Source of the DNA: Aurantiochytrium sp. KH105
Lineage: Eukaryota > Sar > Bigyra > Thraustochytrida > Thraustochytriidae
Assembly (NCBI GenBank): GCA_003116975.1
Contig: BGKB01000144.1
Location: 103,370-167,369 of the forward strand
DNA: 64,000 nucleotides
Reading direction: 5' to 3'
Part shown: one piece after another, positions 18,732-38,323 of the stretch
How positions within the stretch are numbered: the stretch's first letter is position 1
How the letters are laid out: each line of letters starts with the position of its first letter
Made by a program: the position numbers and the translations under genes
The notes under the pieces: model-generated
Databases searched by the model: none
What the model was told of the DNA's origin: nothing
Seen by the model: only the letters and a program-made list of their open reading frames with translations

Positions 18732-19088
18732 GCTCGCGGCCTCTCGACTTCTCTCTCCGAGTCTTTCCGCGATTGGTCGCCGTAGAAGCGGGCCTGCTCC
18801 CTGCACTGCAGCAAAAGCCACTGGCGCCCGGCGGCGCCAAGTAGACCTGGGCCTATACCTGACTTGCCGGGGCGGCTGGAAGTCCTGGCCTCCTCGTCGG
18901 CGGCCTCCCATGGCCCCCTCCCTCCCTATCCCTCTCCGTCTGGCCCCACACCGCGGCAGAGACCCGTTGAATCGGCGCGAGGACGCGGAGCTGAGCTAGC
19001 TCATGCGGCCTGGGCCCAGCAAGGCCTCCCTCCTTCTGCAGGAAGGAGCCCAGGGTGGAGACGGCCCAAGGCAGACCCCGTCGCAGGG

Positions 19089-22000
19089 ATGCTGGCTCGG
19101 GGCGGGCCCGCCGCGAGTGCCGGCAGCCGTGGGCCGGAGGCGGGCGAGGACGCCGGCGCAGACGCCGAGCAGGCGCTGCGGCTGCTGCTGGGCGACCGGT
19201 GCGAGGAGGCTCTCGACGCCGGGACCCTGCGCCAGGTCCTCCCGCTGCTGAGACATCCAGAGCCCACTTTTAGAGAGCTCACGCTGCGAGCGCTCGCGCT
19301 GGCGCCGCGCAAACTCGTCGTGCTCTTCCGAGAAAGCGAATCTCGCACGGGGGCCGCAGATGTCTTGCTAGGTGTTGCAAGCGCCGATGAACGCATGGAA
19401 AACCGATGTCTCGCAGGGAGAGTCCTGGGCCGTCTTTTGCCCGCCTTCGAACACGATTCTCGGCGCCAGCGTCTCGAAGCAGATGCAACTGCAGCCGTAT
19501 TTGAATTGTTTCGCGACGCATTTGAGCGCCAGAGCCTTCACCATGCGCTCGCGGCCGCTACGGCCGTCGCTCCTTACCTTGAGCGAGCCGTGCAGCACCA
19601 GGGTCCGAATAGCCCCTTGGTGCAAACCTTCCTTCGGGAGTCGCTCAAGGTCCTCTCGAGCGCTGTTTCCGTCGCAGGCCCTATTTCCTTGGCATCTTCG
19701 CGTGCTTCGGAACTGCAGCATCCCCTCCTCCTCGCGACTCTGCTCCGCATTCTCCGCGAGCATCTTCGTGACACAGAATTCAATCGAAGAACCTTTGTTG
19801 AGCCCTTTCGCGAATTCGTGCATCAAATTTTCGTCGTAAAACGTGGACCAGCGCAGTGGGTGAACCGCGAAGCGCCCGAGTTTCTGCGCAACGAAGCAAG
19901 CTGGTTCCTCTGCAAATGGTTTCAGATCCCCAGCGATGATTTTATACGTAAGCTTGGACCAGCCGTCATCAGAGCATACGTCCAAAGTACAGCACGCGGA
20001 GGCCTTCATGCCCACTTGAAAACTCGGATGAAGAGCTCGTCATCGAAATACGAAGATGCCTACCTTTCCGATGTGCGGCAGCTTGAGCGGCGCCGAAAGG
20101 CCAGACAAGCCAAAGGTCACAGCCAGCCGCAGAAGAAGCGCCATGATTCGTTTCATCATTTGCAGTTTTCCGCTCAAGGTGGCTACATACCACGTCGATA
20201 CTCTCTTTTGGCAAACGAGCCAACAACAACTCGAGCAAAAGGCGGGAGCTTCAAATCGAAGTCGATGCAGGCACGAAGCGCCATGTCGCTTTCTGACGCA
20301 ACGTATGGTACCAAAGCGAATGCAACAGATAGTACCAGAGTTGTAACCATCGCAAATGATGACCATGGCGCTGATGAGAACAGCAGCGATGACGATGAGA
20401 CGGACGATGATGAGGCAGAGCTACCGCCCGGACTCCTCACAACCCTGACCTTTCAAATGGCGGTACCATCGGTCGAGTTGAGCGGATCCAAGCGAGAGGT
20501 CATTCTGCACCTCACAAATCCCGGGAGTCAGGCTGAGCTTTTTGCACTGCAAACTTTTCCGAGCACAAATTTTGCTGCAGTTCCAGCGTTTGGTGTGGTC
20601 GCTGCCAAATCTTCCATGCCCATTTGCGTGCGCTTTGTACAAGATCTGAGCGACCCATCTCTTGCAGGAGCCTGCGTGCGAGGCTTTCTCCGTGTCAGAT
20701 CGCGTCATGGTGTTGCGGGGGAACGAGTGGCCCTCTCTGCGTATCATGGTCCGCTTCTTGAGGTCCTCGACACCGAGTTGAGCTTTGGCCATCTTTCGTG
20801 CGCTCGAGGCTCAAATCGCGAAAGAACGCTGCCTCTCATTGTAAGAAATCGTGCCAAGGTACCTTGCAATGCCTCCTTTGAAGCCGTTGAGGACCATGAC
20901 GCAGTCTTTCTCATACGACAGTCGCAGGCTCTCATCATGCCCGGAGAGGAGCTCTGGGTCGATGTTACCTTTCGCCCACGCAAGCGCAAAGGCTACAATG
21001 ACGCCATACTGGTGAGTGCCCCGGGAGGAGAGGCTCATCGGATAGAGGTCTCTGGACACGGAAGTAGTCCCCTACGCGTGCACGAGGAGGAGCTTGAATT
21101 TGGAATCCTACAGCTCAACCACGCGAATGGTGCAACTGCAACCAAGACATTTCGTGTCGAGAACCTCGATCCATCTCAGTCAATCCCAATCTCGTTTTCC
21201 TCAGATCGTCCAACCGAGGTGTTTGCAGAGCGAACAACGTTGAAACCCCGTGAAGTACGCGAAATCACGGTCCGTCTTCGCACTTCATGCACGGGTGTAT
21301 TTCAGGCTCTGCTGGTCATTGCGTCGCCAACATGCGAATCAGTGTCTGTGACGTTGCAAGCCTTTGTGGGGAACCTCGTAACGATTCCACTTTCGCCGAA
21401 TATCGGATTGCCCGTCCAGCCGACTGGTGCAACTGCCACCTTTGAGCTCCCCCTCAAAAATTATTACTCGAGCCCCGTTGAGTTATACCTGACCGGATTC
21501 GAGGACTCGCCATGTACTGCCTTTTTCCAGTCGCCAACGCAGGAAACCCTCGAGCTTCGTGAGGGAGTTACAGTGGTGATGCATCCATTCGAAGATGTCT
21601 CGCTTGAGCTGCGCTTCTCATCGACAAAACCAGGACTCTTCCGTTTGCCTGTGCGTCTGGAACTCATGCATCCCCATCGAGCTACGTTCGGTCCGTGGTA
21701 TCTAACGATTCCCTGCACAGGGGAAGACGTCAGTGGTGATCAGCGACGTCTTAAAGCGAAGCGTCTGGACTTTGCCAATCTTCGCCGTCTCTTAGCGGTC
21801 TCTATCTCCCATGAACACCCTGCGCAGGAGCTCACTGAGCATGAGGAAGCAGTTGATGAGGAGGAAGACGAACATGATGATAATATCAGTCCCGCGGGCG
21901 AAATCTCATCCTCGGCTTCGCCAGACGGCTTCGTCGCGCACGAAACCAACCTTCTCATTTCTCAGAGAGTCACTCCGGTCTTTGGCAATCCGTGTCAAAA

Positions 22001-25000
22001 CGAAAGACCTAGGGCGACAGTTGAGGTGCGCAATATTTCGAGCGTGTCGCAACCTTTCAAAGCTCTTGTTAGTAGCCCCTTTGTCCTCCGGCAGCCGAGT
22101 CTACAGGAAGGTTTTATCGATCCCCACGACGTTCTTCGTCTCGAAGTGGAAATTGATCCCAGTCTTGAAAACGTGACTCTCGAGCCTACGTGGGGCTTCC
22201 TCAGCATTCTCGTCGAAAAAGGTGGGCATTTACGCCCGCTTTGCTCCACGCTTCTACAAGGTGCGGCCACAGCGCCCATTCATTTGAGCTGCCCGGACGA
22301 TGGTCTGATCTTTCGTGGCGTCCACCGCGATGAGAGTGCGACGAGACTGCTACGCGCGAGCAACCACACTCCATGCCTGGCCAGAATGACATGCACAATT
22401 GTGCAGGATGCCGATGCATCTCCTTTCCGGATCGTTGTGGACCAAGAGGGCGCCGCCTTGGCTGACAGAGACTATGTCATGAAGGCCGACTTTCATTTGA
22501 AACCGTGGGACCATTGCAATCTGATCCTTCGCTTCAAAGTGGAGAATGGTGGCGTGTACGCTGCGCCCTTAATTTGTGTGGTGCACGATCCGTTCGCACC
22601 TGATGCTGATTCGGAACCCTCCAAAAAGCAAGCAATCAAGGTGTTCTCTGGCATGCTGGATGGTGGCGCGCATAGCAACGAGTGTGTTGCTACGAGTCCA
22701 ACAGTCGTAGACTTTGGCGATCTTAGCGTTGGACGTTCGCTTCGGCAAAGTGTTTTGCTCACGAATTTCTTCCGTCATGATCTTGCGGTAGCACTTGCTG
22801 TCGACGATGGTCCCTTTTCATTGGCCGATAGCCAAACGTGCGCGCTCATGAACCTGCCATCCGCCGGCCAGGACCCAGCAAGGCGCGTGCCTCTCGACGT
22901 CGTGGTGAGGCCAGGGATATCTCGCAACTATGTTCGTTTTTGCAGAATCATGTCGCTCTCTGGTCCGGAGGAACCTAAAAATTTGATTCTTCGCGTGAGG
23001 GCAGGGGTCTGCGAGCTCACAACAAACTTTGGAAACCCTTCGCGCGTGTGGACGTTTTCTGAGGCGTCATCAGAGCCAACTCTTAAATCCGAATCGCCCA
23101 CATGTGTTGACTTTGGTATTATTCCAACGGGGCGTACCGTCCCCGCGCGCCTCGACTTGATTCTTTGTAATTGTGGCACCAGGTCGGTCGATGTATTGCG
23201 CGTTCACAGCAAGCTCCCGCGGCTTCGCTGGAGTATTGAGACCCTTCCAGGTCACACCGCGGAGCAACTTCACGCGCCAGGCATCACACCTTCCCAGCTT
23301 CAAAGGATGCGACGTCTGGCCGTACTTGGAGCTCTACTCACTCACGACAAGGCCACTGATGCACGCGTGAACGCCATTGCGCTCGAAGCTCCAGATGTCG
23401 TCACTCACTCAGCGAGCTTGCCTTGCACCGTAGATTGGGACGAAGTTGATTTTCACCTCGGAGCTGCGCAGGATGATGTCCGCCGGGATCTCCGAGAGAA
23501 GGCGCTTCGTCAAATGGACCAGGATCGTGCACAGGCTCGTCCGACGGCGAACACTATGAGCAAAAATGTCGTGGAGAAATCCCCATCATCTCCGTATCGG
23601 GCCAACAAGGAGAGTACTCGTGGTGGCAGTGACGAAGAGACGAAAATCCCGGGCATCGAGGAGAATGAGAGTGAGAATACCTTGCATTGGAAAGCAAACC
23701 TTCCGCACGAGCCTCTGGAAGCATTCAACGGTGCGCTGGCTCGTTATGGAGTTGGTCTTGCAAAGCCAATTGAGACCCCGCTTCGACTCGACCCAGGGAA
23801 ACACGTCCGAATTTTGCTGCAAATGGACTTTGAGCAAGGGGACACTGGGGCGATTGACGGGGATCTTGAGGTGCACACTGACGAACCTGGGGCCGCGGCA
23901 TCAAGTATCCATGTTTTTCGCATCGCCTCGAAGTTTCAGCCGGAGCTCGTGTTCGATTCGTCAGAGATCTCCTTTGGAGTTGTCGCTGCTGGGTCACTTG
24001 GTACTGGATTTCTTACGATTCGTAATCCAGGCGTCGTAAGTGTGCACTGGAAAGCAAATCTGCAAAGAGGACACAGCGTTTCTTTAGGAAAATTAAATTC
24101 CAATGCAGATGCAGGAGAAATTTGCATCAAAGACGAAACGACAGGCGCCAAATCACAAGACACCACTGCTCTTGACAATGAAATGATCCAAGATATATTT
24201 GCGATCACACCCGCAGCATGCACGCTGGACGCAGGCCGGAGTCAACGCGTCAAAGTTGTCTTCAAGCCAACCAAAGAATTTCTTCAAAAACAGATTCACG
24301 CCTCTCTCGTCTTCAAGACGAGCTTGCCCGGAAGTGAACAGGTGACTCTTGGCCGCTCAAGCGTCTATGATAGCCTTCCAGTCGCTCTACATGGCGCAAC
24401 AGGCGCCGCAGCAGTGGAAGCTCTTAGTGATGAACTGACCCCTGCATCGGATAACGCCGCGGCTCCCACAGCCCCTCGCTTGTCGTTTGGCTGCATTCAA
24501 GTTGGAATGCGGAAATCACGTGAATTTCGACTATATAATTCAGGAAACATGGCTGCAGATTTCGTCGTCGAGCGGGATCCCGATGCTAACAACGTGGATG
24601 CAACCCGATTTGGCAACCTTTTCTCCTTTGTGCCTGCCGTGGGCATCATTCAGTCCGGAGAGACGCGAAGCGTGACGGTAAGGTATTTGGCCAATGACCA
24701 AGGCCTGCACGATGTCACGCTTCACGTCACGTGGAATACTCACAGTAACGTTCCTGAAGAGAGTGTGCCGACAGACACCGCCTCAAACCTGATTAAAATT
24801 CACTGTAGCGGCAGTGGAGGGTTGCCCCAACTTCATGTGAGACAGGCAAGAATCAAGTACGAGCAGGCAATTGTAGGCGTTGCCAATCTTGCGCACTTGC
24901 AAGTCTTCAACTACGGTACAGCTGAATGCTTCGTGGCGTTCAAAATGCCAATAAAAAGTCTTCATGTGAGCCACAACGCAGAAGGCATTTGTGTACCCCC

Positions 25001-28000
25001 GCGAGACAGTATTCAAATTCCAGTGATCTTTACGCCCACAACGCTTGAGCGTGTGGAAACCACTCTGGTCGTGCACATGATTCAGGATGCTTCGGTATTC
25101 TACGAAGTAGACGTATCTGCCTTTGTGGGTGTTCCGGACCTTAGTATCACACCCGAACGGGCGCTTCATGGTCTCGATTTCGATGTTGCTCTCGTGAAGC
25201 AGACACATGTGCGTAGCTTCACGGTGACAAACATTGGAGACGTGGGTCTCGACTTTGCTTGCGCCTTTCTTCGCCCCACACGGGCAGCGATCGAACGTCA
25301 TATGCGCCGAGCATCAGCCATAGCAAACGGCCAAAGGCGAAACTCACTCGCGCATGGGCCTAAGCGGCAGTCCTTGGACAAATCTTGTCGCGAGTCGTGG
25401 CTCGATACTTATTCTTTTCCCGATGACTTTGAGGACTTTGTCCCAGAGTATCTGACGGTCGAGCCTATGGAAGGCACTTTTTCCACGGGGATGATGATCC
25501 ACTTCACCGTCAGCTTCACGCCACTCGAGCGAGAAAAGGAGTCACATGCAATATTTGCGATCCGAAATCGCTTCGACACCATCAAAGCAGAAATTCGAGG
25601 CGTCGGAGGAGATCCGCTTCTCGAACTGGATACACCGCTGCGGGTCATTGACTTTGGACTGTGCGAAGCGGGGCAAGCCTACGAGCGAACAATACATGTC
25701 ATGAATCCCGGCAATGTTCCCTATGACTTTATCGTTGAGCCCGATCCGAGCGATGCAGACTTGCGAGCGACGCTTTTGCAGTTTGCGCATGTTGCGGGAG
25801 AAGACTCAGCTCATGCCGATCGAAGCGGCGGCGCGGCCGGGGCGTCTCAAAAGCCACGCAAGAGCCTCGTTCATGGAGCGAATGAACTAACAGAGCATCT
25901 TCCTCGCGCCCTCGCCAAGTTTGGCTTTGCTCTCGAGACGAGTGGAACATGCAATGCATATGGGCGCTCCCCTGTGCGCTTTACATTCAAAGTTCCCGAA
26001 ACCGTGAATTTTTCTCATAGTACTCGCAGCAGCATTTTCTCCGCCAAAATTCAGTTGCGGCACGCTACTGGGTATGAGCAGCTCACGCTTCGGGCCAAAG
26101 AGGCCTTTGCAAGCCTCGAGCTGCATGGCACGGATCAAATGCCGCTCCAGGACACCGTGGTGGACTTTGGTATCTCGGCGGTGCGACAGACACACCTGCG
26201 CACAGTTCTCTTGCACAACTCTGGAAAACTCCCTGCGGTGTTTTCTGTTCAGTCGAATGCGTCCAGCGAATATGCAATTTTCCCGCGAGACGGGACGGTG
26301 GGCCCCGGGGAGTCTTTGCCCCTGCAAATCAGCTTTGCACCCACGCTCAGCGATCGTGTCGAGGGAAATTTCGTCGCAATTTACAATAGTGCGTCGCGCT
26401 TGAGCATTCCTGTCGCAGGTACCGGCGGCAAAGGTGTCGTTGACGTCGAGTTTGTGTCAGATCGCGACAAGAGCATGCACGGACTCGATTTTCAATTGGT
26501 GTCCACCCACGTTCTGATGGAGAAGAAGGTGTTGCTGCACAACATAGGCCAAGTGCCCCTACGGCTCGTCTGCGAATCAACTTCGCCTTCGTACACCATT
26601 GGAAGCATTCGCATGACTGACGTTCAAGCTGCCACACCTGGGTACGGTTCGAAGTTCACATGCTCGAACGGCGAAGCGGAACGACTTGGCCCCCAATCTT
26701 CGCAAGGAGCCCCCCAATACGCGTCGCCAATGATGATTTTGCCTCGGAAAGGCCGTCGAGGCAAATCACAGCAATCGCAACATCTGCAAAAATCGTATCA
26801 GCAACATCACTCTGCGCCCCAGGGCGACCCTGGAGGATCAGAAGTCACATCCGGCCGCACAGGGCCAGGCCGCGGATCGATCTTCTTGCCGTCGGGTGAC
26901 GATGGTCTTATCAGGGCGCAAAGCAAGCTTGCTCTCGACCACTACAGGAAATCAGGGGACGACACCGAGGGACATGTCGTTGTGGAGTGCACTTTGCCCC
27001 CTGGCTCTTTTGCGATCTTGCGCGTGCGACTTTTTGCAGAACGAGAAATCACGTATGCAGGCATGCTCAAAGTCCGAAGCGAGTTCGATGCCAAATCAAT
27101 TCCCCTCCGGGCTCGGGGCGGGGCCGTTAAACTGCGTCATACGGGAGACCTTGACTTTGGACAGATCGCTTGTGATCACACCTATACGCGCACCATCACG
27201 CTATCCAATTCTGGCTCGATTCCTTCGAGCGTTGAGATCTACTGGAAGATGAAACCCAGCTCGCGCGAGGCATTTGCGCTGTCCAAAGCGGGCGTACACT
27301 CCGGGACAGTGCTCTTAAAGGGATCAACAACCCGCCTTGGTTTACGCAGATTCTGGCATTGGGCGCTGGAAAATGTCCTCGCGCTTGTGCGGGAGGCGCG
27401 CGCATTGACGGGCAACCAAGAGCTGACAGCAGACCAGCGTGAGGCCCTGCTGGATCCGGATGCTGACCTGGAAGCCTGTCTGGGTCTCCGTGACACGACC
27501 AAGAGAAATACGGTTGCTAAAATTAGCGCTGGTTCGTTTGCGCATCGGAAATCACAAAGTGCCGCGGCGGGTACACTCTCTGGGCTGAATGAGGCCTTCC
27601 GAGGATTGCAGGCTGCTGGCGAGACGGCAGGCGCGCGAGTGGCGCAGATTCTCGAACGTTTTCACAAGTACCAGGAGATTCAACTCGCGCGTCAAGAGGA
27701 TGACGCAAGGGATCTTTCCGAAGTCGTGCGCACCAAAGACGACGTCGCTCGTGATTCACGGGCGCTACGAGAGTTCCTTCACGCGTCCGCATCACGGCGC
27801 GAACATGCTGCCAACAACGCTGCCGATATCGACCCACAGCAGCAATTTGAAAAGGAGCTCGAGGACAGCCGGTTTTCTCTCCCGCATGTGCAAGTGACGC
27901 CGCGACAAGGAACTTTGTCGGAACGCATGAGCATGGACGTGACGGTAACGCTCAATACATCTGTTGAAGGGAGCTTTGAAGCGACGCTGGTCGTGGCGCC

Positions 28001-30731
28001 GACGTTGCCTGGTGTGGGGCCCTACGAGATTCCTGTTCGTGCCGAGTCTCAAGAAGTGCGAATTATCGTGGACGACCTGGGAACAATCAACTTTGGTCGT
28101 CAGGCGCTCGGAGAAACCAAGGTGATTCGACGTGTCTTTGAGAATCAAGGAAGCATGGCAGCTGAATTTCGCATTCGAAACACCAATGCAGATCTCGTTG
28201 CGGACCCGTGCGATGGTGTTTTGGAGCCTGGCGATGTACTTGCGGTAGATTTTGTATACTCTCCTTCAAGCGAGGGCATCTGCGCGCACCCTGTACTTAT
28301 TGAGACGAATTGCACGGCACCGATTGTTCTCGATGTTTATGCGGGCGGAGGCTACCCGCAGCTTGATTTTGACCACTATGAAAGCTTTGACTTTGGACGC
28401 TGCATGGTCGGGAAGACAATCCCCAAGCGACTGCGTATAGGTAACTCTGGAAACGCCGTGCTGACAATCACAGCACTCAACTTTCAGAAGCATCGGCGCC
28501 GGACACACGCCGTCTTTGAGCGTGGCGAGGGCTGGCCACAGGAGCTGGCGTCTGGTCAGGTGTTACGAATTGCACCCTCTGAGAGCTACTATGTGCCTCT
28601 TGTTTTCCATCCCAATTCAGAAAGCCACTTCGAAGAGGTTTTCACAATTCAAACAACCGTTGGATCATACTCGCTGCATCTCTTTGGAAGCGGTAGAGAG
28701 GCTGTACTTAGTCTGTCTGTACACCGCATCGACTTTCTGGATTGCATTGTGGGCAACGCGTATCAGCGTTCTTTTGAGATATCAAACGCAGGGGATCTTG
28801 TCTATCCGTTGGACATTTCGCTCCTTTACACCGAAAGCAACGAGCCCGCGCCTGACAAAAAGAAGGCAGCCAAGTGGACGCCCTTAAATGACCTCAAGGC
28901 GGAACCGCAGCATCTCTCCATCGCTCCATTCGAGAAACGGGTTGTCACTGTGACATATTTGCCCAGCAAGGCAGCTGAGGAGAATCTTGGAAACGTGCGC
29001 ATTGCGCTGTCTTCGATCTACTCCAACTTTGATATACCTCTGCGCCTTCACGCCGGCACAGCAGATTTAGTCGTCAATCCACCTGTCTTTGACTTTGGTC
29101 ACTTCCAGGTGTCAAGGCCGGCACCCGCCATGGTCACTTTCTCCAATGCCGGGACCATGGGATTTGGGTTTCGACTCAAGCGCGTTGTAGACGACCTTGT
29201 CATGGACGAAGAGGGCCAGAACGAGTCTAGCGACGTCTCGTTTCCGTTTCGGCTTTCTCGATGGGAGGGATATCTTTCCCCCGGCGAGTCCGTTGAAATT
29301 GTCGCCACTTTCGTTGTCGGGGCAAAGTCCGGAGGGGATCTGGAACGCTTTCTTGGCTCGTTTCACAAAGAGATCCATGCAGAGACCGATCTAGTGGGCA
29401 GCTCCTTAGTGCTTGTTCTTCGCGGCAAGTGTGACTCTTCTACCTTGCGGTCGGAAGAGTTTGACCGTGTACAAATGGGTGCGTGTGCGGTGGGCGACCT
29501 TGTCAATAAGACTGTTACGATTCGCAATTATGGCGGCTATCCTGCAGAAATGAGTTTGCAGCCAAGCTTTCCGCTCAAAGTTGCACCCAAGTCCCTTATG
29601 GTGCCTGGTCATGGAGAAGCATCGTTCGTCGTCAGTTGGAAGCCTCTTGGGGGCTACGAGCTGCGAGGAAGCATCAAGGCGCAGTCGAATGTGGGTCTTT
29701 TTGACATTCAAGTGAACGGCATTGGGGTGTATCCCAAATTCTATATTGAGGGCTCGAAGGTTGACTTCGGCGTCTGTGCACCCGGCGTTGAGTACGAGCG
29801 TAGCTTTATGATCCGGAACACTGGGAAAATAAAGCTTGAATGGTCTGTCCCAGCTGTCGCGCCAGGATATCGTGTTTTGCCGGACACTGGCGTACTTGAC
29901 ATCAGGCAAAGTCAAGCCGTGGTGGTCTTCTTCAAGCCCGTTGACCTGGGCCGCTTTCCGGGAGACTTTATCGTCGAGTCACGGGGCAGGTATAAAATTG
30001 TGAGTGCTTCCGGGGTTGGCGGAGTGTACAATGTACAGGTCGTTCCCGAGACTCGATGCTTTGACTTCGGGGAGACGCCTTGCGGCGTGTTCTCATGGAG
30101 AACACTGACTTTTACCAATCGCGGCACGGTACCTGCAGAGCTTTGTCTCTCTGTGAAGAAATGTTGTCAAACGCATGCGCGATTATTGCTTGCTAATGCA
30201 AGTATAGAAACAACGGCGCAGAGAATAGAGCCCGAGGAGAGGGAGGCAAGTAAAGATGAGCCCGCGGGCAGTTTAAAAGAGGGGGAGACGCCGCTGCAGG
30301 TGAAACTTTTGCCGGGGCAATTTTCAAGTATTCAAGTCGGCGTTGATCCTGGATTAGATCCGGTTGACTTTGCGTTCACAGTGCACGTCGACAGCGCGGA
30401 AGCTGCAGAAAGAATTGCAGTAAAAGGAACTGGTCATGTGATCAGACTCTCTCCCGAAGCGAGAGCGACGCTACTGCAAGAGCAGCTCACCTCTCTTGAC
30501 GTGGTGGAACCATGCGAGGATAACAGCTTTGGTGAAGGTGCTCAATACTCGATAAATATGCACGATTCGAGTGTGCGACGGGTGCTGGCGCCTGTGGAGG
30601 TGGACGACGAGGCTTCATGGCGACGGCTGGAAATTTGTAACCTGGAACCAATCGATGTGGCTCGCGATTTGCCACGCCTCGATTTCATCTTGGATGCCCC
30701 CAAACCCTTTCTTCCGGCGCGTCCCAAATGA
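19089..30731 (+). CDS. Giant ASH/MSP-domain protein, HYDIN/CFAP-type axonemal protein
   Basis: One uninterrupted frame encodes about 3,880 residues. After an N-terminal helical, ARM/HEAT-like region (about the first 320 residues) and a charged linker, the rest consists of roughly twenty beta-sandwich repeats of the ASH/MSP class. Each starts with a (V/I/L/F)DFG...G motif and continues with a hydrophobic 'N.G' strand: VDFGDLSVG (near 22710), VDFGIIPTG (23108), IDFGLCEAG (25648), VDFGISAV (26162), LDFGQIACD (27152), INFGRQALG (28087), FDFGRCMVG (28389), FDFGHFQV (29090), VDFGVCAPG (29761) and FDFGETPCG (30061). Proteins of this layout (HYDIN, CFAP47, CFAP65, DLEC1) sit in motile cilia, often in the central pair. 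I cannot decide which subfamily this is. The frame extends upstream to an ATG at 18864, but that leader is low-complexity and overlaps the divergent neighbour's longest frame, so 19089 is preferred. Confidence 0.85.
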   Translation: MLARGGPAASAGSRGPEAGEDAGADAEQALRLLLGDRCEEALDAGTLRQVLPLLRHPEPTFRELTLRALALAPRKLVVLFRESESRTGAADVLLGVASADERMENRCLAGRVLGRLLPAFEHDSRRQRLEADATAAVFELFRDAFERQSLHHALAAATAVAPYLERAVQHQGPNSPLVQTFLRESLKVLSSAVSVAGPISLASSRASELQHPLLLATLLRILREHLRDTEFNRRTFVEPFREFVHQIFVVKRGPAQWVNREAPEFLRNEASWFLCKWFQIPSDDFIRKLGPAVIRAYVQSTARGGLHAHLKTRMKSSSSKYEDAYLSDVRQLERRRKARQAKGHSQPQKKRHDSFHHLQFSAQGGYIPRRYSLLANEPTTTRAKGGSFKSKSMQARSAMSLSDATYGTKANATDSTRVVTIANDDHGADENSSDDDETDDDEAELPPGLLTTLTFQMAVPSVELSGSKREVILHLTNPGSQAELFALQTFPSTNFAAVPAFGVVAAKSSMPICVRFVQDLSDPSLAGACVRGFLRVRSRHGVAGERVALSAYHGPLLEVLDTELSFGHLSCARGSNRERTLPLIVRNRAKVPCNASFEAVEDHDAVFLIRQSQALIMPGEELWVDVTFRPRKRKGYNDAILVSAPGGEAHRIEVSGHGSSPLRVHEEELEFGILQLNHANGATATKTFRVENLDPSQSIPISFSSDRPTEVFAERTTLKPREVREITVRLRTSCTGVFQALLVIASPTCESVSVTLQAFVGNLVTIPLSPNIGLPVQPTGATATFELPLKNYYSSPVELYLTGFEDSPCTAFFQSPTQETLELREGVTVVMHPFEDVSLELRFSSTKPGLFRLPVRLELMHPHRATFGPWYLTIPCTGEDVSGDQRRLKAKRLDFANLRRLLAVSISHEHPAQELTEHEEAVDEEEDEHDDNISPAGEISSSASPDGFVAHETNLLISQRVTPVFGNPCQNERPRATVEVRNISSVSQPFKALVSSPFVLRQPSLQEGFIDPHDVLRLEVEIDPSLENVTLEPTWGFLSILVEKGGHLRPLCSTLLQGAATAPIHLSCPDDGLIFRGVHRDESATRLLRASNHTPCLARMTCTIVQDADASPFRIVVDQEGAALADRDYVMKADFHLKPWDHCNLILRFKVENGGVYAAPLICVVHDPFAPDADSEPSKKQAIKVFSGMLDGGAHSNECVATSPTVVDFGDLSVGRSLRQSVLLTNFFRHDLAVALAVDDGPFSLADSQTCALMNLPSAGQDPARRVPLDVVVRPGISRNYVRFCRIMSLSGPEEPKNLILRVRAGVCELTTNFGNPSRVWTFSEASSEPTLKSESPTCVDFGIIPTGRTVPARLDLILCNCGTRSVDVLRVHSKLPRLRWSIETLPGHTAEQLHAPGITPSQLQRMRRLAVLGALLTHDKATDARVNAIALEAPDVVTHSASLPCTVDWDEVDFHLGAAQDDVRRDLREKALRQMDQDRAQARPTANTMSKNVVEKSPSSPYRANKESTRGGSDEETKIPGIEENESENTLHWKANLPHEPLEAFNGALARYGVGLAKPIETPLRLDPGKHVRILLQMDFEQGDTGAIDGDLEVHTDEPGAAASSIHVFRIASKFQPELVFDSSEISFGVVAAGSLGTGFLTIRNPGVVSVHWKANLQRGHSVSLGKLNSNADAGEICIKDETTGAKSQDTTALDNEMIQDIFAITPAACTLDAGRSQRVKVVFKPTKEFLQKQIHASLVFKTSLPGSEQVTLGRSSVYDSLPVALHGATGAAAVEALSDELTPASDNAAAPTAPRLSFGCIQVGMRKSREFRLYNSGNMAADFVVERDPDANNVDATRFGNLFSFVPAVGIIQSGETRSVTVRYLANDQGLHDVTLHVTWNTHSNVPEESVPTDTASNLIKIHCSGSGGLPQLHVRQARIKYEQAIVGVANLAHLQVFNYGTAECFVAFKMPIKSLHVSHNAEGICVPPRDSIQIPVIFTPTTLERVETTLVVHMIQDASVFYEVDVSAFVGVPDLSITPERALHGLDFDVALVKQTHVRSFTVTNIGDVGLDFACAFLRPTRAAIERHMRRASAIANGQRRNSLAHGPKRQSLDKSCRESWLDTYSFPDDFEDFVPEYLTVEPMEGTFSTGMMIHFTVSFTPLEREKESHAIFAIRNRFDTIKAEIRGVGGDPLLELDTPLRVIDFGLCEAGQAYERTIHVMNPGNVPYDFIVEPDPSDADLRATLLQFAHVAGEDSAHADRSGGAAGASQKPRKSLVHGANELTEHLPRALAKFGFALETSGTCNAYGRSPVRFTFKVPETVNFSHSTRSSIFSAKIQLRHATGYEQLTLRAKEAFASLELHGTDQMPLQDTVVDFGISAVRQTHLRTVLLHNSGKLPAVFSVQSNASSEYAIFPRDGTVGPGESLPLQISFAPTLSDRVEGNFVAIYNSASRLSIPVAGTGGKGVVDVEFVSDRDKSMHGLDFQLVSTHVLMEKKVLLHNIGQVPLRLVCESTSPSYTIGSIRMTDVQAATPGYGSKFTCSNGEAERLGPQSSQGAPQYASPMMILPRKGRRGKSQQSQHLQKSYQQHHSAPQGDPGGSEVTSGRTGPGRGSIFLPSGDDGLIRAQSKLALDHYRKSGDDTEGHVVVECTLPPGSFAILRVRLFAEREITYAGMLKVRSEFDAKSIPLRARGGAVKLRHTGDLDFGQIACDHTYTRTITLSNSGSIPSSVEIYWKMKPSSREAFALSKAGVHSGTVLLKGSTTRLGLRRFWHWALENVLALVREARALTGNQELTADQREALLDPDADLEACLGLRDTTKRNTVAKISAGSFAHRKSQSAAAGTLSGLNEAFRGLQAAGETAGARVAQILERFHKYQEIQLARQEDDARDLSEVVRTKDDVARDSRALREFLHASASRREHAANNAADIDPQQQFEKELEDSRFSLPHVQVTPRQGTLSERMSMDVTVTLNTSVEGSFEATLVVAPTLPGVGPYEIPVRAESQEVRIIVDDLGTINFGRQALGETKVIRRVFENQGSMAAEFRIRNTNADLVADPCDGVLEPGDVLAVDFVYSPSSEGICAHPVLIETNCTAPIVLDVYAGGGYPQLDFDHYESFDFGRCMVGKTIPKRLRIGNSGNAVLTITALNFQKHRRRTHAVFERGEGWPQELASGQVLRIAPSESYYVPLVFHPNSESHFEEVFTIQTTVGSYSLHLFGSGREAVLSLSVHRIDFLDCIVGNAYQRSFEISNAGDLVYPLDISLLYTESNEPAPDKKKAAKWTPLNDLKAEPQHLSIAPFEKRVVTVTYLPSKAAEENLGNVRIALSSIYSNFDIPLRLHAGTADLVVNPPVFDFGHFQVSRPAPAMVTFSNAGTMGFGFRLKRVVDDLVMDEEGQNESSDVSFPFRLSRWEGYLSPGESVEIVATFVVGAKSGGDLERFLGSFHKEIHAETDLVGSSLVLVLRGKCDSSTLRSEEFDRVQMGACAVGDLVNKTVTIRNYGGYPAEMSLQPSFPLKVAPKSLMVPGHGEASFVVSWKPLGGYELRGSIKAQSNVGLFDIQVNGIGVYPKFYIEGSKVDFGVCAPGVEYERSFMIRNTGKIKLEWSVPAVAPGYRVLPDTGVLDIRQSQAVVVFFKPVDLGRFPGDFIVESRGRYKIVSASGVGGVYNVQVVPETRCFDFGETPCGVFSWRTLTFTNRGTVPAELCLSVKKCCQTHARLLLANASIETTAQRIEPEEREASKDEPAGSLKEGETPLQVKLLPGQFSSIQVGVDPGLDPVDFAFTVHVDSAEAAERIAVKGTGHVIRLSPEARATLLQEQLTSLDVVEPCEDNSFGEGAQYSINMHDSSVRRVLAPVEVDDEASWRRLEICNLEPIDVARDLPRLDFILDAPKPFLPARPK

Positions 30732-33166: not shown

Positions 33167-36124
33167 ATGGCGGAGACCGACCGTGACGGCGTTTGGGCGC
33201 GCGAGGCCTCGTGGACGCTCAAAGCAAGACAACACGACGGAGAGTGTGGACCCGAACAGGAAAAGAGCGAGTCGAGGGAGGCGGTCCGCGAAACAACGCG
33301 AGATCATCCTCTCAGAGCGCTTCAGGCCTATCCTCGATCAAGAACTGAAAGCAGTGGCGAAGACCCTCTGTCAAGGCCAAAGTCGTCCAAGCCAACATCT
33401 ACAACGAGTGTCATCAGCAATCGCGGGCTCACTGTGACAGCAAACTCTGGATCTGCATCAAGATCCATGCCAAACAGAAGTTCACCCTCGTCACAGTCTT
33501 TTTTATGGCGTCGACTCTTGGAAAAATGTGCCAGAGAGCTGGCACCATTGGGAAATATCCGGGTGCGCGGGGGTCATCTGATGCCAAACTCGCTATCAAG
33601 CCCAAACAATCGAGGCCATGATCCACGGAAAGCAGCTGTGTCGCTCTCGAAGGCACGCCTCCGTCTCGATCACCTACAATCCAAATCGCGCATCCTGGAG
33701 ACAGAGCAACGGCGCACGCCTGCCTCCGTCCCGGGGTTGTTTTCTGAAGATGGGGTTGTGAGCTTGACAAAAAAGGAGTGCATTGACCGCATTGTAAAAC
33801 TGCGAGCTCTACTGAGGCGCGCATGGAGGCGCGGTGAACGGACACAAGCGCTGCGAATTATCATCCACGCCATCAAGCTGCTCTCCGACTTTTCTGCCCC
33901 GCAACAACACCCATTTCTCTGGGCCCATGTCGTCGAGGTACTCGATGAGTTCGGTGAACTTGTGTTAGATCGGTTGCGCCGCCTTCGGTCAAAGGACTCA
34001 GACCACGAAGGCGGGCCTCCCCAGAATGTAGTCGCGGGCCAATTGAGCGCCCTCGATGCGTGCCGGCACTGGTTCGCCAAAGCGGCTAACATTCGCGAAC
34101 TTTTGCCGAGATTGTACGTTCAGATTGCGCTTCTCCCTTGCTATGATTTGCAGCACGAGAGAGATCCGAGCGGCGAGGAGAAAATTGACCCGAGTTTATC
34201 CGAGTTTCTTAACCACATTTGCAAGTCAATCCGCGGTATTGGAAGCCCACTTGCAGGTCTGTACTGCCGGGCGTACTTTGTGCGCAACGGTGACGTGCTC
34301 TTTGCAAACCAAATGACGTGTAAACACCGCGAAACGTGGCGGGATATTGTGCTCGCGTCTCTTTTTGACTATATGCAGTGCTCGGAGGACTTCCGTGAGC
34401 GCCAGGGCGCCAAAGTGTGGACTTTTCACGGCATGAATGGAGCCTCCTTTGAGGCAGTGCACGCGCCAGCTGCAGAGTGGGTGGTTCGGACGTTCGGTCG
34501 TGATGCTGAAGAGCGTCACTTCGATCTCGTCTTTGAGCGTTGCATCGCTGCCTGGGGCATTGGGTTGCGCGCGCTGCTCGCTGGGTTTGCACCACATATT
34601 TTTGTCCCTCGTGCACAAGCCCTACTCGATCTTATTGAGACGAGGGATTGGGACGAGCGCACGCGTGGCGGCGTGCTTGCACGGATCATGGATGGGCTCT
34701 GCGCATTTGAAAAGGTTCCTCAAGGTGCAAGAAGTACAGGAGGAACCTCATCCTCTGTCACCATCAACAACATCGCCACCACCAACAACAACAAGCTTGC
34801 GCTCTTTGCGCGACTTCGTCTAGAGGTGTCCAAGCTTCAAGAGATGGAGACATTTGCAGACTGCGCAGTCGCGCTGGTCGGACTCGCCCAAGCTCAAGGA
34901 CAAGAAGGCGAAGATTACGCGGAGACCGTGCGGGGTGTGATGCAGCGCCTACGTCAAGATTTCGACGTGCATGGGACGCTTGAGCGCGCAGAGCCTCAAA
35001 TGGAGCGTCTCTGTATGCTGTTTTGTGGAGATGAAACGGAGCCGAGCAACGCGTGTCTCGCGGACGAGAACGTGATGGAGATTCTGGAAATGATTCAGAG
35101 CACACGCAAGACCTCGCTTGAGAAAATCCTTCTCGCTCGGCTCGCCCCAACATCAGACCCTGTTGTGATTCACTCAGCACTGACCGTCGCTCGTGATTTG
35201 CACGATGCCATTGATGCGCTTGCAGGCGACGCCGAAAGACGGCACACTGGACAGCTTGTCTGTCACTTTCTAGACTGCATTGAGCTTGTAAGAGCTCGAG
35301 ACCGAGACCAGCTCTTTCAGATTCTGGGAGACTGTCGTGCGTCCTTTCCAAATCTAGAATGCGCTCTCGAACGCATCGTGCATCGCGTTGCCCAACTTAC
35401 GCTTTGTGCCGGGCGTGCACGCGGGGCGATATCAAGCCGACCGAAAGCTCGCGAGGAACCGTTTGTCAAGTCATGTCTCGCATTCTGCCACATTACAGTC
35501 CCATCACTCGCACCTCCTGCGCGTCGTTTTGCACTTTCATTGCACTGCGCTCGCGTTGCGCTGGCGCGAGGGGTCTTACCGCAGATGGATGCCCATCTCG
35601 AGCAAGCTCTGGGAGTGTGGAACGACATTACGCCAGATGAAAGTCGTCTCGAGTGCGTGCGAGCCTTTCTTGGTGGTCTCGCAGGAGTGCCGACTACCCT
35701 TGAGGAGCCTCTTTACTTTGTGCGCAAAGTCTGCGATAAACTGCACCTTGGTTCCTGGGACGAGTCTTTGGGCGCGCGTGGTCTCGCCCGTGTGGCAGTC
35801 GTTCAGGTCCTGGTAGCTTTAGGCCAGGACGACGGGCTTTCAACGGGCACGATCGGCGAGCTCCTGAGTGAGATACTCAGCGACGTCTACCACGAAGATA
35901 TCGCGCCCCTGCGCAAGGCCTGCGCCGGCGCAAGACCCGCTGAGGCAGAGGTTCTGCATGCATTTGGACGTCTGGTCTTGTCGCTTTTGGACGTTTTGAC
36001 GAGTCATCTCGCGCTGGAAGATGAGCAGCGTAAGGCCCTTGCACGCCTGCTCTCAGAGCTGCAGGACAATGTGCAAGCAGCAGGGCCTCGCCTCGAGCGC
36101 CTTCGTGTTATGCTCGTAGTATAG
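33167..36124 (+). CDS. VPS35L: VPS35L (C16orf62-type), retriever complex scaffold subunit
   Basis: VPS35L pairs with VPS26C and VPS29 in retriever, which with the CCC and WASH complexes recycles cargo from endosomes to the cell surface. The first ~195 residues are poorly conserved, basic and probably disordered. From about residue 200 the protein is a continuous alpha-helical solenoid. Recognisable stretches include KKECIDRIVKLRALLRRAW, WFAKAANIRELLPRLYVQIALLPCY, and SIRGIGSPLAGLYCRAYFVRNG, which corresponds to the conserved segment of VPS35-type proteins. Length (985 aa) is near that of the human protein (~960). VPS35 itself was considered, but the conserved N-terminal VPS35 motif for VPS26 binding is not evident. 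The following gene is 266 bp downstream on the same strand. Confidence 0.85.
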   Translation: MAETDRDGVWAREASWTLKARQHDGECGPEQEKSESREAVRETTRDHPLRALQAYPRSRTESSGEDPLSRPKSSKPTSTTSVISNRGLTVTANSGSASRSMPNRSSPSSQSFLWRRLLEKCARELAPLGNIRVRGGHLMPNSLSSPNNRGHDPRKAAVSLSKARLRLDHLQSKSRILETEQRRTPASVPGLFSEDGVVSLTKKECIDRIVKLRALLRRAWRRGERTQALRIIIHAIKLLSDFSAPQQHPFLWAHVVEVLDEFGELVLDRLRRLRSKDSDHEGGPPQNVVAGQLSALDACRHWFAKAANIRELLPRLYVQIALLPCYDLQHERDPSGEEKIDPSLSEFLNHICKSIRGIGSPLAGLYCRAYFVRNGDVLFANQMTCKHRETWRDIVLASLFDYMQCSEDFRERQGAKVWTFHGMNGASFEAVHAPAAEWVVRTFGRDAEERHFDLVFERCIAAWGIGLRALLAGFAPHIFVPRAQALLDLIETRDWDERTRGGVLARIMDGLCAFEKVPQGARSTGGTSSSVTINNIATTNNNKLALFARLRLEVSKLQEMETFADCAVALVGLAQAQGQEGEDYAETVRGVMQRLRQDFDVHGTLERAEPQMERLCMLFCGDETEPSNACLADENVMEILEMIQSTRKTSLEKILLARLAPTSDPVVIHSALTVARDLHDAIDALAGDAERRHTGQLVCHFLDCIELVRARDRDQLFQILGDCRASFPNLECALERIVHRVAQLTLCAGRARGAISSRPKAREEPFVKSCLAFCHITVPSLAPPARRFALSLHCARVALARGVLPQMDAHLEQALGVWNDITPDESRLECVRAFLGGLAGVPTTLEEPLYFVRKVCDKLHLGSWDESLGARGLARVAVVQVLVALGQDDGLSTGTIGELLSEILSDVYHEDIAPLRKACAGARPAEAEVLHAFGRLVLSLLDVLTSHLALEDEQRKALARLLSELQDNVQAAGPRLERLRVMLVV

Positions 36125-36390: not shown

Positions 36391-37362
36391 ATGGCTGCTC
36401 GTGCGGCCGTTCGCGCGACGGTGAGACGTGGCGTGAGCTTCGAAGGCATTGGTCTGCACGCCGGGACGCTGTGCGGGGCTCGCGTGGAACCTGCGCAGGC
36501 CGGAGAAGGCCTTGGATTCGTTGTCGGTGGGAAAGTGCCGTCCTCAAGGCGACGTCATGCTCTGGGGCCTCTCGCCGTGCGGCAGACGCCACTTTGCACC
36601 GAGGTTGAATGCGCAGAAGAAGGCTCCGTGCGTACTGTCGAGCACCTCCTGGCGGCGCTCTTTGGATGCGGCATTAGCGACGCCACCATCGTAGTAAACG
36701 GGCCAGAAGTCCCGATTCTAGATGGCTCGTGCGCCGACTTCGTAGAGGCGCTTCAGGGTGAAGTGGCCCCCTTTGACGGCGCAACAGAAGGAGAAGCTCC
36801 CGTAGCGCTGCCCGTGGTGTCTGTGAAAGAACCTGTAGTGCTTGACCTGTTGGCCTCGCAACAACGCCGGTACGAGCTGCGACCTTGGAAATCCGGCGAA
36901 AGGCCAGGTACAGCGGGTCTTCCACAGCTCGAGGTGCACGTTGAGGTAGACTCCTTTGGCGGAAGACTACCGGGGCCCCAGGTTGCCTCTATTCTGCACA
37001 CATATGAAGCAGGAACAAGTGGTCCCTCGCGGGATTTCGTTGAAAAGGTGGCCCCGGCGCGCACATTCTGCTTTCAAGAAGACGTTGACGCGATGCGAGC
37101 AATGGGCCTTGCTCGTGGTGGATCTCTATCCAATTCAGTTGTGTTTCTGGGCGACGGAAGCGCTGCGACAGTGAATGAAACGGGCCTTCGCATGGATGCC
37201 GAGTGGGCGTGGCACAAGCTGTTGGACTGCTTGGGCGATCTGTCCGTGTTGACGGCGCAATACGGGGCTCTAGATGGGGTACTTTCTGTGCGCGCGCCTG
37301 GCCACGCAGCGAGCAATGAATTTTTGCGCTCACTTGTGCCTCAACTATGTTTCAAGCCATAG
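36391..37362 (+). CDS. lpxC: LpxC, UDP-3-O-acyl-N-acetylglucosamine deacetylase
   Basis: LpxC is the zinc deacetylase that commits UDP-acyl-GlcNAc to lipid A synthesis in Gram-negative bacteria; plants have homologues. All active-site positions are visible: Glu84 and His85 in TVEHLLAAL, Thr225 in ARTFCF, the Zn ligands His275 and Asp279 in AWHKLLDCLGDL, and His305 in APGHAASN. The flanking blocks GIGLHAG, PILDGSCADFV, GLARGGSLSNSVVF and NETGLRMDAEWAWHK also match. Length is 323 aa against ~305 for the E. coli enzyme. The N-terminus begins MAARAAVRATVRRG, Arg/Ala rich without acids, and might act as a short mitochondrial signal; plant LpxC is mitochondrial. It is intronless, 266 bp after VPS35L, and codon use looks like its neighbours, so recent bacterial contamination is unlikely. 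The final codons belong to a local repeat array. Confidence 0.96.
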   Translation: MAARAAVRATVRRGVSFEGIGLHAGTLCGARVEPAQAGEGLGFVVGGKVPSSRRRHALGPLAVRQTPLCTEVECAEEGSVRTVEHLLAALFGCGISDATIVVNGPEVPILDGSCADFVEALQGEVAPFDGATEGEAPVALPVVSVKEPVVLDLLASQQRRYELRPWKSGERPGTAGLPQLEVHVEVDSFGGRLPGPQVASILHTYEAGTSGPSRDFVEKVAPARTFCFQEDVDAMRAMGLARGGSLSNSVVFLGDGSAATVNETGLRMDAEWAWHKLLDCLGDLSVLTAQYGALDGVLSVRAPGHAASNEFLRSLVPQLCFKP

Positions 37363-37645
37363 TCTATACTTGAGATAGATACGCTGTGTGCTCTCCCGCG
37401 TCTCAATAAATTTGTTCCGGGCCATTTTATAGAGTCTTGAGACGCGTTGGACCCATCCATCAGTTGTGCCTCAACAGATTTGTTGTAAATCATCTGTTGC
37501 AAGTCATGTTCTAGATTCTGAAGATGGGTTGCGCTCGCTCACGCCTTGTGAAATTTATTTCAAGCCATCCACTAAATGTTTAGAAAGAGTTGCGCTCACT
37601 CATGCCTCAAATTTGTTTCAAGTCATAGTCTATACTAGAGATGCG
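37324..37645 (+). repeat. Degenerate repeat array spanning the LpxC and L21 3' ends
   Basis: A ~53-bp unit beginning TTGCGCTCAC and ending in TCTATACTNGAGAT occurs at 37324-37376 and again at 37590-37642, with about six mismatches. Weaker copies start near 37462 and 37529. The first copy encodes the last LpxC residues and its stop; the last copy, read on the opposite strand, encodes the final residues and stop of mitochondrial L21. Confidence 0.85.
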
Positions 37646-38323
37646 CAGAAAGGTAACATCCCGGCGAAAGCCCTTGGTCCGGCGACTCTTGTGATTCTTG
37701 GTGCGCCTCTTCATAATGAGGATTTTCTTGTCTCGCGTGATCTCCTCCACAACGGCCGTCACGGTGGCGCCCTTGATAACGGGCCGGCCAATGACGGTCT
37801 TGTCGAGCCCTCCAACGAGCAAGACTTCATCAATAACATACTCCTTGCCAACCTCGGCGCCCTCGATGAGGTTGCACACGATGAGGTCGTCCTCGACGAC
37901 CTTGTACTGCGTCCCGGAGAGGGCCACGACGGCAAATTTGCTGGGCGCTGCCGGGTCTCTGAACGGGAGCACCACGGGATGCTCTACAACGCTCGTGCGC
38001 GACTCCGCGATGCGGGCCTCCTCGGCGGCCCTTCGCGCGGCCACGGCCTCCCTCGTCTTGGAGATCACGCGGGCCTTCCATTCCGGGAGCGCTTTCGCAG
38101 CAGCTGGAGCCTCGCCCGCGTCGCCGCCGCCGAGGCTGCTCAGGCCCCTGCTCGCGCCGGCGTTCGCGGCGGCGCCGAGCCGCGCGAACTCCGGCAGGCC
38201 CAGCGCCGTCGCGCGCAGCGCCGCCGTGGTCGCGGGCGCCGCCAGTCGCCATCCCTGCGCGAGCGGCGCGCCCGCGCGCTGCCTGCGCGCAGCCGTCTGC
38301 GCGCAGAGCATCGCCGCGCGCAT
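37607..38323 (-). CDS. MRPL21: Mitochondrial large-subunit ribosomal protein bL21m
   Basis: bL21 binds 23S-type rRNA in the large subunit. The conserved region occupies the C-terminal ~110 residues: FAVVALSGTQYKVVEDDLIVCNLI, GKEYVIDEVLLVGG, TVIGRPVIKGATVTAVVEE, and KILIMKRRTKNHKSRRTKGFR. The N-terminal ~110 residues start MRAAMLCAQTAARRQRAG, an Arg-rich, acid-poor presequence, which with the extension points to the mitochondrial rather than the plastid ribosome (no plastid is expected in this lineage). The last ten residues (SSIDYDLKQI) lie in a repeat shared with the 3' end of the converging lpxC gene 244 bp away, so the C-terminus may have been re-formed by duplication. The plus-strand frames across this gene are antisense shadows. 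Confidence 0.94.
   Translation of the reverse strand: MRAAMLCAQTAARRQRAGAPLAQGWRLAAPATTAALRATALGLPEFARLGAAANAGASRGLSSLGGGDAGEAPAAAKALPEWKARVISKTREAVAARRAAEEARIAESRTSVVEHPVVLPFRDPAAPSKFAVVALSGTQYKVVEDDLIVCNLIEGAEVGKEYVIDEVLLVGGLDKTVIGRPVIKGATVTAVVEEITRDKKILIMKRRTKNHKSRRTKGFRRDVTFLRISSIDYDLKQI

Follow-up and report, generated by a model that had tools for sequence, protein, structure and literature searches.

The genome assembly of the thraustochytrid Aurantiochytrium sp. KH105 holds a near-complete set of lipid A genes under constraint, which is a larger find than the single LpxC gene in the stretch of 64,000 nucleotides analysed here (the window). Lipid A is the fat anchor of bacterial endotoxin, and thraustochytrids are marine relatives of diatoms and water moulds without chloroplasts. 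The LpxC of the window would be the second enzyme of a lipid A pathway encoded in the nucleus, and this pathway probably leads to a lipid IVA-like glycolipid bearing 3-deoxy-D-manno-octulosonic acid (Kdo), most likely of mitochondrial location.

The LpxC gene and the other lipid A genes

The LpxC gene (Table 1) is an intact open reading frame (ORF) whose product covers nearly the whole Pfam model PF03331 (196.4 bits, cut-off 27; residues 9-316 correspond to positions 2-267 of 268 in the model). A search of the PDB with the protein matched 28 distinct sequences, named as this deacetylase, with a best E of 8.1e-28. These two scores rule out a chance match as the source of the assignment. Alignment with LpxC of E. 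coli K-12 revealed identity at all eight positions compared, E78, H79, T191, H238, K239, D242, D246 and H265 of E. coli corresponding to E84, H85, T225, H275, K276, D279, D283 and H305. Of these, we take E78 to be the catalytic base and H79, H238 and D242 to be zinc ligands, T191, K239, D246 and H265 presumably being active-site positions as well. All eight were invariant in an alignment of seven rows; in one of 38 rows seven were invariant and H305 nearly so. An earlier note on this DNA, which had described a complete LpxC with its catalytic and zinc-binding positions present, is borne out on both counts. As part of the proposed pathway, and with the same confidence as the whole, the gene is predicted to encode an active UDP-3-O-acyl-N-acetylglucosamine deacetylase.

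The same note had suggested a check for other Lpx homologues. Profile-model searches were carried out over the whole assembly (76 Mb, 367 contigs), each with control genomes, and LpxA, LpxD, LpxB, LpxK and KdtA were all found, together with KdsA and KdsB, at two places each. LpxA reached 258.6 and 257.6 bits in the genome search and 268.6 as a protein (cut-off 226), and LpxK 155.3 and 152.5 bits and 105.7 as a protein (cut-off 91.95). The two copies of KdtA matched PF04413 with 144.4 and 144.3 bits (cut-off 23.9). For KdsB, the main exon scored 208 and 207.4 bits, with a weak first-exon piece at one of the two places, and a score of 262.4 was obtained against a cut-off of 193. KdsA gave 271.7 and 270.1 bits in the genome search, which is under the TIGR01362 cut-off of 314, and exceeded the NF003543 cut-off (280.7 versus 242). 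LpxD appeared as exon pieces and LpxB as two pieces per copy. In the control search the LpxA and LpxD models matched all 14 genomes, 4 of them over the cut-off, so only matches over cut-offs were counted; LpxA passed in the genome search itself, LpxD only as a spliced protein.

Introns were deduced from splice sites and sequence homology rather than from transcripts. LpxB consists of two exons with a GT-AG intron of 147 or 134 bases and has 449 residues when spliced. LpxD has three exons, two GT-AG introns and 230 residues in each copy; the spliced protein scored 270.5 with the LpxD subfamily model (cut-off 207) and 241.1 with TIGR01853 (cut-off 242.5). Active sites were compared with E. coli for LpxC, LpxA, LpxD, LpxB and KdtA, while LpxK, KdsA and KdsB were aligned as wholes. 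LpxB keeps the GEASGD motif and four of four positions (E15, D98, R201, N316), LpxD both H239 and H276, and KdtA E60. In LpxA seven of nine positions are kept (H122, H125, H144, R204, D74, K76, Q161) and two, H160 and R205, are changed. A second position of KdtA, 98, was dropped as a test site, the residue not being acidic in E. coli itself. The assembly holds intact LpxA, LpxC, LpxD, LpxB, LpxK, KdtA and KdsA, while for KdsB at least the main exon is present.

Duplicate copies, constraint and nuclear context

All six Lpx/KdtA loci have a second syntenic copy in the assembly. That of LpxC lies at C203:22693-23616 on the minus strand, with the same gene order as the first. Protein identity between the copies is 93.5-99% (421 of 449 residues for spliced LpxB). 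The ratio of nonsynonymous to synonymous substitution rates (dN/dS) between copies was 0.28 for LpxC, 0.17 for LpxA, 0.35 for LpxK, 0.17 for KdtA, 0.08 for KdsA, 0.21 for the main-exon ORF of KdsB and 0.43 for spliced LpxB; the range in five comparison genes was 0.09-0.32. Constraint was assessed by placing the substitutions observed between copies at random in 1000 simulations and counting the amino-acid changes. For the pooled gene set, LpxB being represented by exon 1 only, 70 amino-acid differences were observed versus 126.7 expected, and none of the 1000 simulations was as low. The same result (0 of 1000) was obtained for LpxA, LpxK, KdtA and KdsA individually. LpxC copies differ by 13 amino acids versus 19.1 expected (P 0.008) and spliced LpxB copies by 28 versus 36.8 (P 0.003), with P values of 0.006 for KdsB and 0.004 for LpxD. 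In all eight genes, the copies thus show fewer protein differences than expected from random substitution.

All the enzymes are of bacterial type, and the neighbours scanned at KdtA and KdsA belong to no clear eukaryotic family, as might be expected if DNA of a contaminating bacterium or of a symbiont had entered the assembly. Such a source is extremely improbable in view of the remaining neighbours, which are clearly eukaryotic at six of the eight loci. LpxC begins 266 bp after the end (36124) of a gene whose product matched PDB chain 8p0v_O, 'VPS35 endosomal protein-sorting factor-like', with 179.6 bits (VPS35L). LpxA is accompanied by ankyrin/TRAF, replication protein A-like and CBS genes, LpxB by RCC1, LpxK by an SNM1-DNA ligase fusion and KH, LpxD by Got1 and RING/RWD, and KdsB by a protein kinase with a C-terminal extension (237.6 bits). 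Among the 17 neighbour ORFs scanned at the LpxC, LpxA, LpxB, LpxK, LpxD and KdtA loci, three, including VPS35L, had no Pfam match at E 0.001, and two more (ARMC5-like and GAF-like) had matches below cut-off only. GT-AG introns deduced in LpxB and LpxD and an even GC content around LpxC speak against contamination as well. The neighbours led to its rejection at six loci, the syntenic copy at each of the six Lpx/KdtA loci. The earlier statement that LpxC sits 266 bp behind VPS35L in a eukaryotic gene row was confirmed for both the gap and the identity of VPS35L, and its conclusion that the gene is no contaminant is upheld by the two syntenic copies and the eukaryotic neighbours.

The proposed pathway, contrary evidence and origin

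A route can be proposed from this gene set. LpxA would transfer a 3-hydroxyacyl chain from the mitochondrial acyl carrier protein onto UDP-N-acetylglucosamine, LpxC would remove the acetyl group and LpxD would add a second acyl chain. Another pyrophosphatase would take the place of LpxH/LpxI, after which LpxB would join two units, LpxK would phosphorylate and KdtA would transfer Kdo supplied via KdsA and KdsB. The route would end in a lipid IVA-like glycolipid that bears Kdo, and this lipid would be tetra-acylated because no LpxL or LpxM was found: the model of these late acyltransferases (PF03279) had no match at E 0.1 in the whole assembly, where an intron-split gene could be overlooked, while four controls matched, all over cut-off. 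On the earlier question of whether a lipid A-like molecule is made, the near-complete gene set lends support; its actual synthesis we infer.

The location of the enzymes was judged by simple N-terminal features, not with a trained predictor, and 25 ORFs with net charges of -4 to +6 served as an informal comparison, three of them being LpxK, KdtA and an LpxB piece themselves. LpxA begins with MLSRSVAACARPSLARGLAS, has no acidic residue among its first 20 and matches its family from residue 37; its start resembles a mitochondrial presequence. The N-terminal 30 residues are basic in KdtA (net +5), LpxK (net +4) and LpxD (net +3). The targeting check suggested in the earlier note thus gave a presequence-like start for LpxA alone and basic N-termini for the other three; LpxC and LpxB are described below. 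The lipid product would most likely reside in mitochondrial membranes.

Several results weigh against a complete mitochondrial pathway, a reading that is built on genes and whose product is inferred from them. LpxC scored below the cut-off of the bacterial equivalog model TIGR00325 (142 versus 187.25 bits), KdtA below that of the NCBIfam bacterial equivalog (162.9 versus 438) and spliced LpxB below that of TIGR00215 (128.8 versus 190.25). LpxD lacks the N-terminal domain PF04613, which the same scan detected in E. coli LpxD. The dN/dS values of LpxK and LpxB lie above those of the comparison genes, which indicates looser constraint there. Of two KdtA neighbours scanned, one had no match and the other matched GAF with 24 bits (cut-off 28.6), PDB searches giving nothing firm; the one KdsA neighbour scanned showed a weak RRM match only. 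LpxC, with the N-terminus MAARAAVRATVRRGV, has no clear presequence (net +3, copy 2: +2) and just four residues more ahead of the domain than E. coli LpxC, and LpxB from its first ATG begins acidic (net -1). Neither LpxH nor LpxI had a match at E 0.1 in the whole assembly, where an intron-split gene could escape. Controls were matched for LpxH in E. coli, Caulobacter and Bacteroides and for LpxI in Caulobacter and Deinobacterium, one over cut-off in each case. Chlamydial-type LpxG was not among the models searched for a UDP-diacylglucosamine pyrophosphatase, and the failure to match LpxH or LpxI leaves a gap in the route unless another enzyme fills it.

The lack of matches to LpxH/LpxI and LpxL/LpxM in the assembly would also suit a pathway that stops at truncated intermediates (a disaccharide or acylated glucosamine phosphates), used as a mitochondrial signal or precursor without a finished Kdo-lipid. 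Arabidopsis reportedly accumulates precursors rather than mature lipid A, and this report counts for such an outcome. We regard it as rather unlikely, given that the genes for the late steps, LpxK and KdtA, and the two genes for Kdo supply each occur twice and are constrained in protein.

The remaining contrary points concern origin. The LpxC tree contained 89 of 90 prepared rows, L095 (a fragment of 11 residues) being left out and three of 13 viral-contig loci being included. Identity to LpxC here is 28-38% for the 80 whole-genome LpxC loci kept, of which 65 are alphaproteobacterial (64 of 79 by class, L095 by title); they are 80 of at least 584 confirmed stretches found with patterns drawn from an alignment that included two Alphaproteobacteria. 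LpxC forms a very long branch (3.97) and falls inside no bacterial genus among the 89 rows, so the gene from one recent bacterial genus that the earlier note had considered was not seen there; the placement itself is unsettled. In the free tree LpxC stood beside Parvularcula (support 90/77), while a tree constrained to group it with 19 non-alphaproteobacterial rows scored 9.78 log units better (p-AU 0.633). The claim of an alphaproteobacterial LpxC was therefore dropped. For LpxA, a tree of 12 rows grouped the protist with five Alphaproteobacteria (99/99), and the alternative with five other rows was only 1.94 log units worse and not rejected (p 0.193). The best bit scores of LpxK, among the 15 of 33 records listed, were to Fusobacterium and Prevotella. 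Kinship with plant proteins was gauged by a single score, LpxA matching 3t57, which we take to be Arabidopsis LpxA, with 112.7 bits versus up to 178.8 for bacterial LpxA. A KdtA tree of seven rows without an outgroup gave no decision on origin. As a separate observation, thirteen IMG/VR 'viral' contigs (L133-L145) encode LpxC-like proteins.

With LpxC and LpxK lacking a clear placement with Alphaproteobacteria, and with the loci on different contigs except for one LpxK and one KdsA copy about 306 kb apart on contig C2, the genes might have been gained piecemeal from several bacteria for unrelated jobs, such as Kdo for surface glycans or hexapeptide acyltransferases for other sugars. This appears improbable, as the set found is a coherent lipid A set with Kdo supply. 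Moreover, all plasmid-collection records matched by LpxC, LpxA, KdtA and LpxK are less than 60% identical, so that this collection gives no sign of a recent gain. Together with the identities of the LpxC loci kept, these values led us to reject recent transfer from one bacterial genus. PMC4198247 tables eukaryotic lpxA, lpxB, lpxD and kdtA as mitochondria-derived and mitochondrial, lpxC and lpxK being missing from its table of mitochondria-derived genes. The genes probably descend from the mitochondrial endosymbiont, a heritage shared with plants that many other eukaryotes would then have lost; this is the least certain step of our reading.

Known systems and the surroundings of LpxC

Like the mitochondrial lipid A pathway of Arabidopsis, the set found here comprises six lpx/kdtA genes and a CMP-Kdo supply. 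The two differ in that the present host is a stramenopile without plastids and that its LpxD is without PF04613. To our knowledge, LpxH, LpxL and LpxM are the steps without genes in the plant pathway, and labyrinthulomycetes, which belong to the Stramenopiles, have no plastids. Of the nine enzymes of the E. coli Raetz pathway six were found, with the active sites of five mostly kept; in contrast to E. coli, there is no match to LpxH, LpxL or LpxM, the genes are dispersed and nuclear, and LpxD is without its N-terminal domain. Cymbomonas likewise has genes for lipid A and CMP-Kdo synthesis in a free-living protist, but is a chloroplast-bearing green alga (PMC5741210). The same source, citing Li et al. 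2011, describes the location of the plant pathway in Arabidopsis as largely mitochondrial. PMC3087551 reports lpx genes in plants and describes green algae and pea chloroplasts that stain as if for lipid A. According to PMC12168206 and PMC4404806, the mitochondria of Arabidopsis contain KDTA and CMP-Kdo synthetase, and a molecule resembling lipid A has been proposed. Among the matches listed in the open-licence literature, no report of a lipid A pathway in thraustochytrids was found, and the passages available from PMC5795050, PMC5811610, PMC11642839 and PMC9777235 contain nothing on lipid A genes in these organisms.

So far, discussion of lipid A synthesis in eukaryotes has concerned plants and some green algae, in which descent from plastids is hard to tell apart from descent from mitochondria. 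A near-complete, constrained set in a heterotrophic stramenopile speaks against an explanation by plastids alone and extends the question to early eukaryotes. If the reading is true, thraustochytrid cells may make an endotoxin-like lipid, which may be of relevance to endotoxin assays of thraustochytrid oils. Thraustochytrids grow in pure culture, and the product of eukaryotic lipid A genes therefore becomes testable. Going further, we put forward tentatively, and with more doubt than confidence, that a plastid-less stramenopile makes a mitochondrial, Kdo-lipid IVA-like glycolipid by an endosymbiont-derived pathway, that lipid A was already made by the last ancestor shared by plants and stramenopiles, and that an enzyme other than LpxH cleaves UDP-diacylglucosamine in eukaryotes.

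Table 1. Features at and around the LpxC gene (positions in the window)
Feature	Position	Strand	Basis or remark
VPS35L, upstream eukaryotic gene, same strand as LpxC	33167..36124	+	PDB 8p0v_O match
LpxC coding sequence	36391..37362	+	single exon, 323 aa, ATG start, TAG stop 37360-37362
E84 and H85 codons (E. coli E78, H79)	36640..36645	+	alignment with E. coli K-12 LpxC
T225 codon (E. coli T191)	37063..37065	+	alignment with E. coli K-12 LpxC
HKLLD motif: H275, K276, D279 (E. coli H238, K239, D242)	37213..37227	+	E. coli alignment
H305 codon (E. coli H265)	37303..37305	+	alignment with E. coli K-12 LpxC
AATAAA, possible polyadenylation signal 42 bases past the LpxC stop	37405..37410	+	short motif; could be chance
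Bacterial-type ribosomal protein L21, convergent with LpxC	37607..38323	-	PF00829, 85 bits

The L21 neighbour is taken for mitochondrial bL21. Downstream there is an echo of the 3' end of LpxC, in which the 53 nucleotides at 37324-37376 recur at 37590-37642 (89%); this far echo overlaps the end of the convergent L21 gene. A piece of 22 nucleotides occurs six times between 37345 and 37632, mostly at a spacing of 58-68 bases. Elsewhere in the window, positions 18786-30728 on the plus strand form a single very long ORF of 3880 residues from the first ATG. At the LpxK locus, the fusion gene (L035:5031-8999, minus strand) is one ORF of 1323 residues that combines an SNM1-type DRMBL domain with an ATP-dependent DNA ligase.

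The first 4 kb of each of the last five contigs of the assembly were sampled; they gave a single tRNA above the Rfam gathering scores, no match to rRNA and no LABY-A primer site. One of these contigs, C366 (L147), which is taken to belong to the same organism because it is part of the assembly, carries a partial mitochondrial nad5, which matched Nad5m of 7a23, presumably a plant structure, with 745 bits. The 655 sense codons of this nad5 include 36 TTG and 20 CTA but not a single TTA, and the reading frame closes with TTA TTA TAA. A naive estimate puts the chance of lacking TTA at about 1e-25. The pattern, which makes a labyrinthulomycete the most likely source of the assembly, is that of the thraustochytrid mitochondrial code, in which TTA is a stop (NCBI table 23, 'Thraustochytrium mitochondria').
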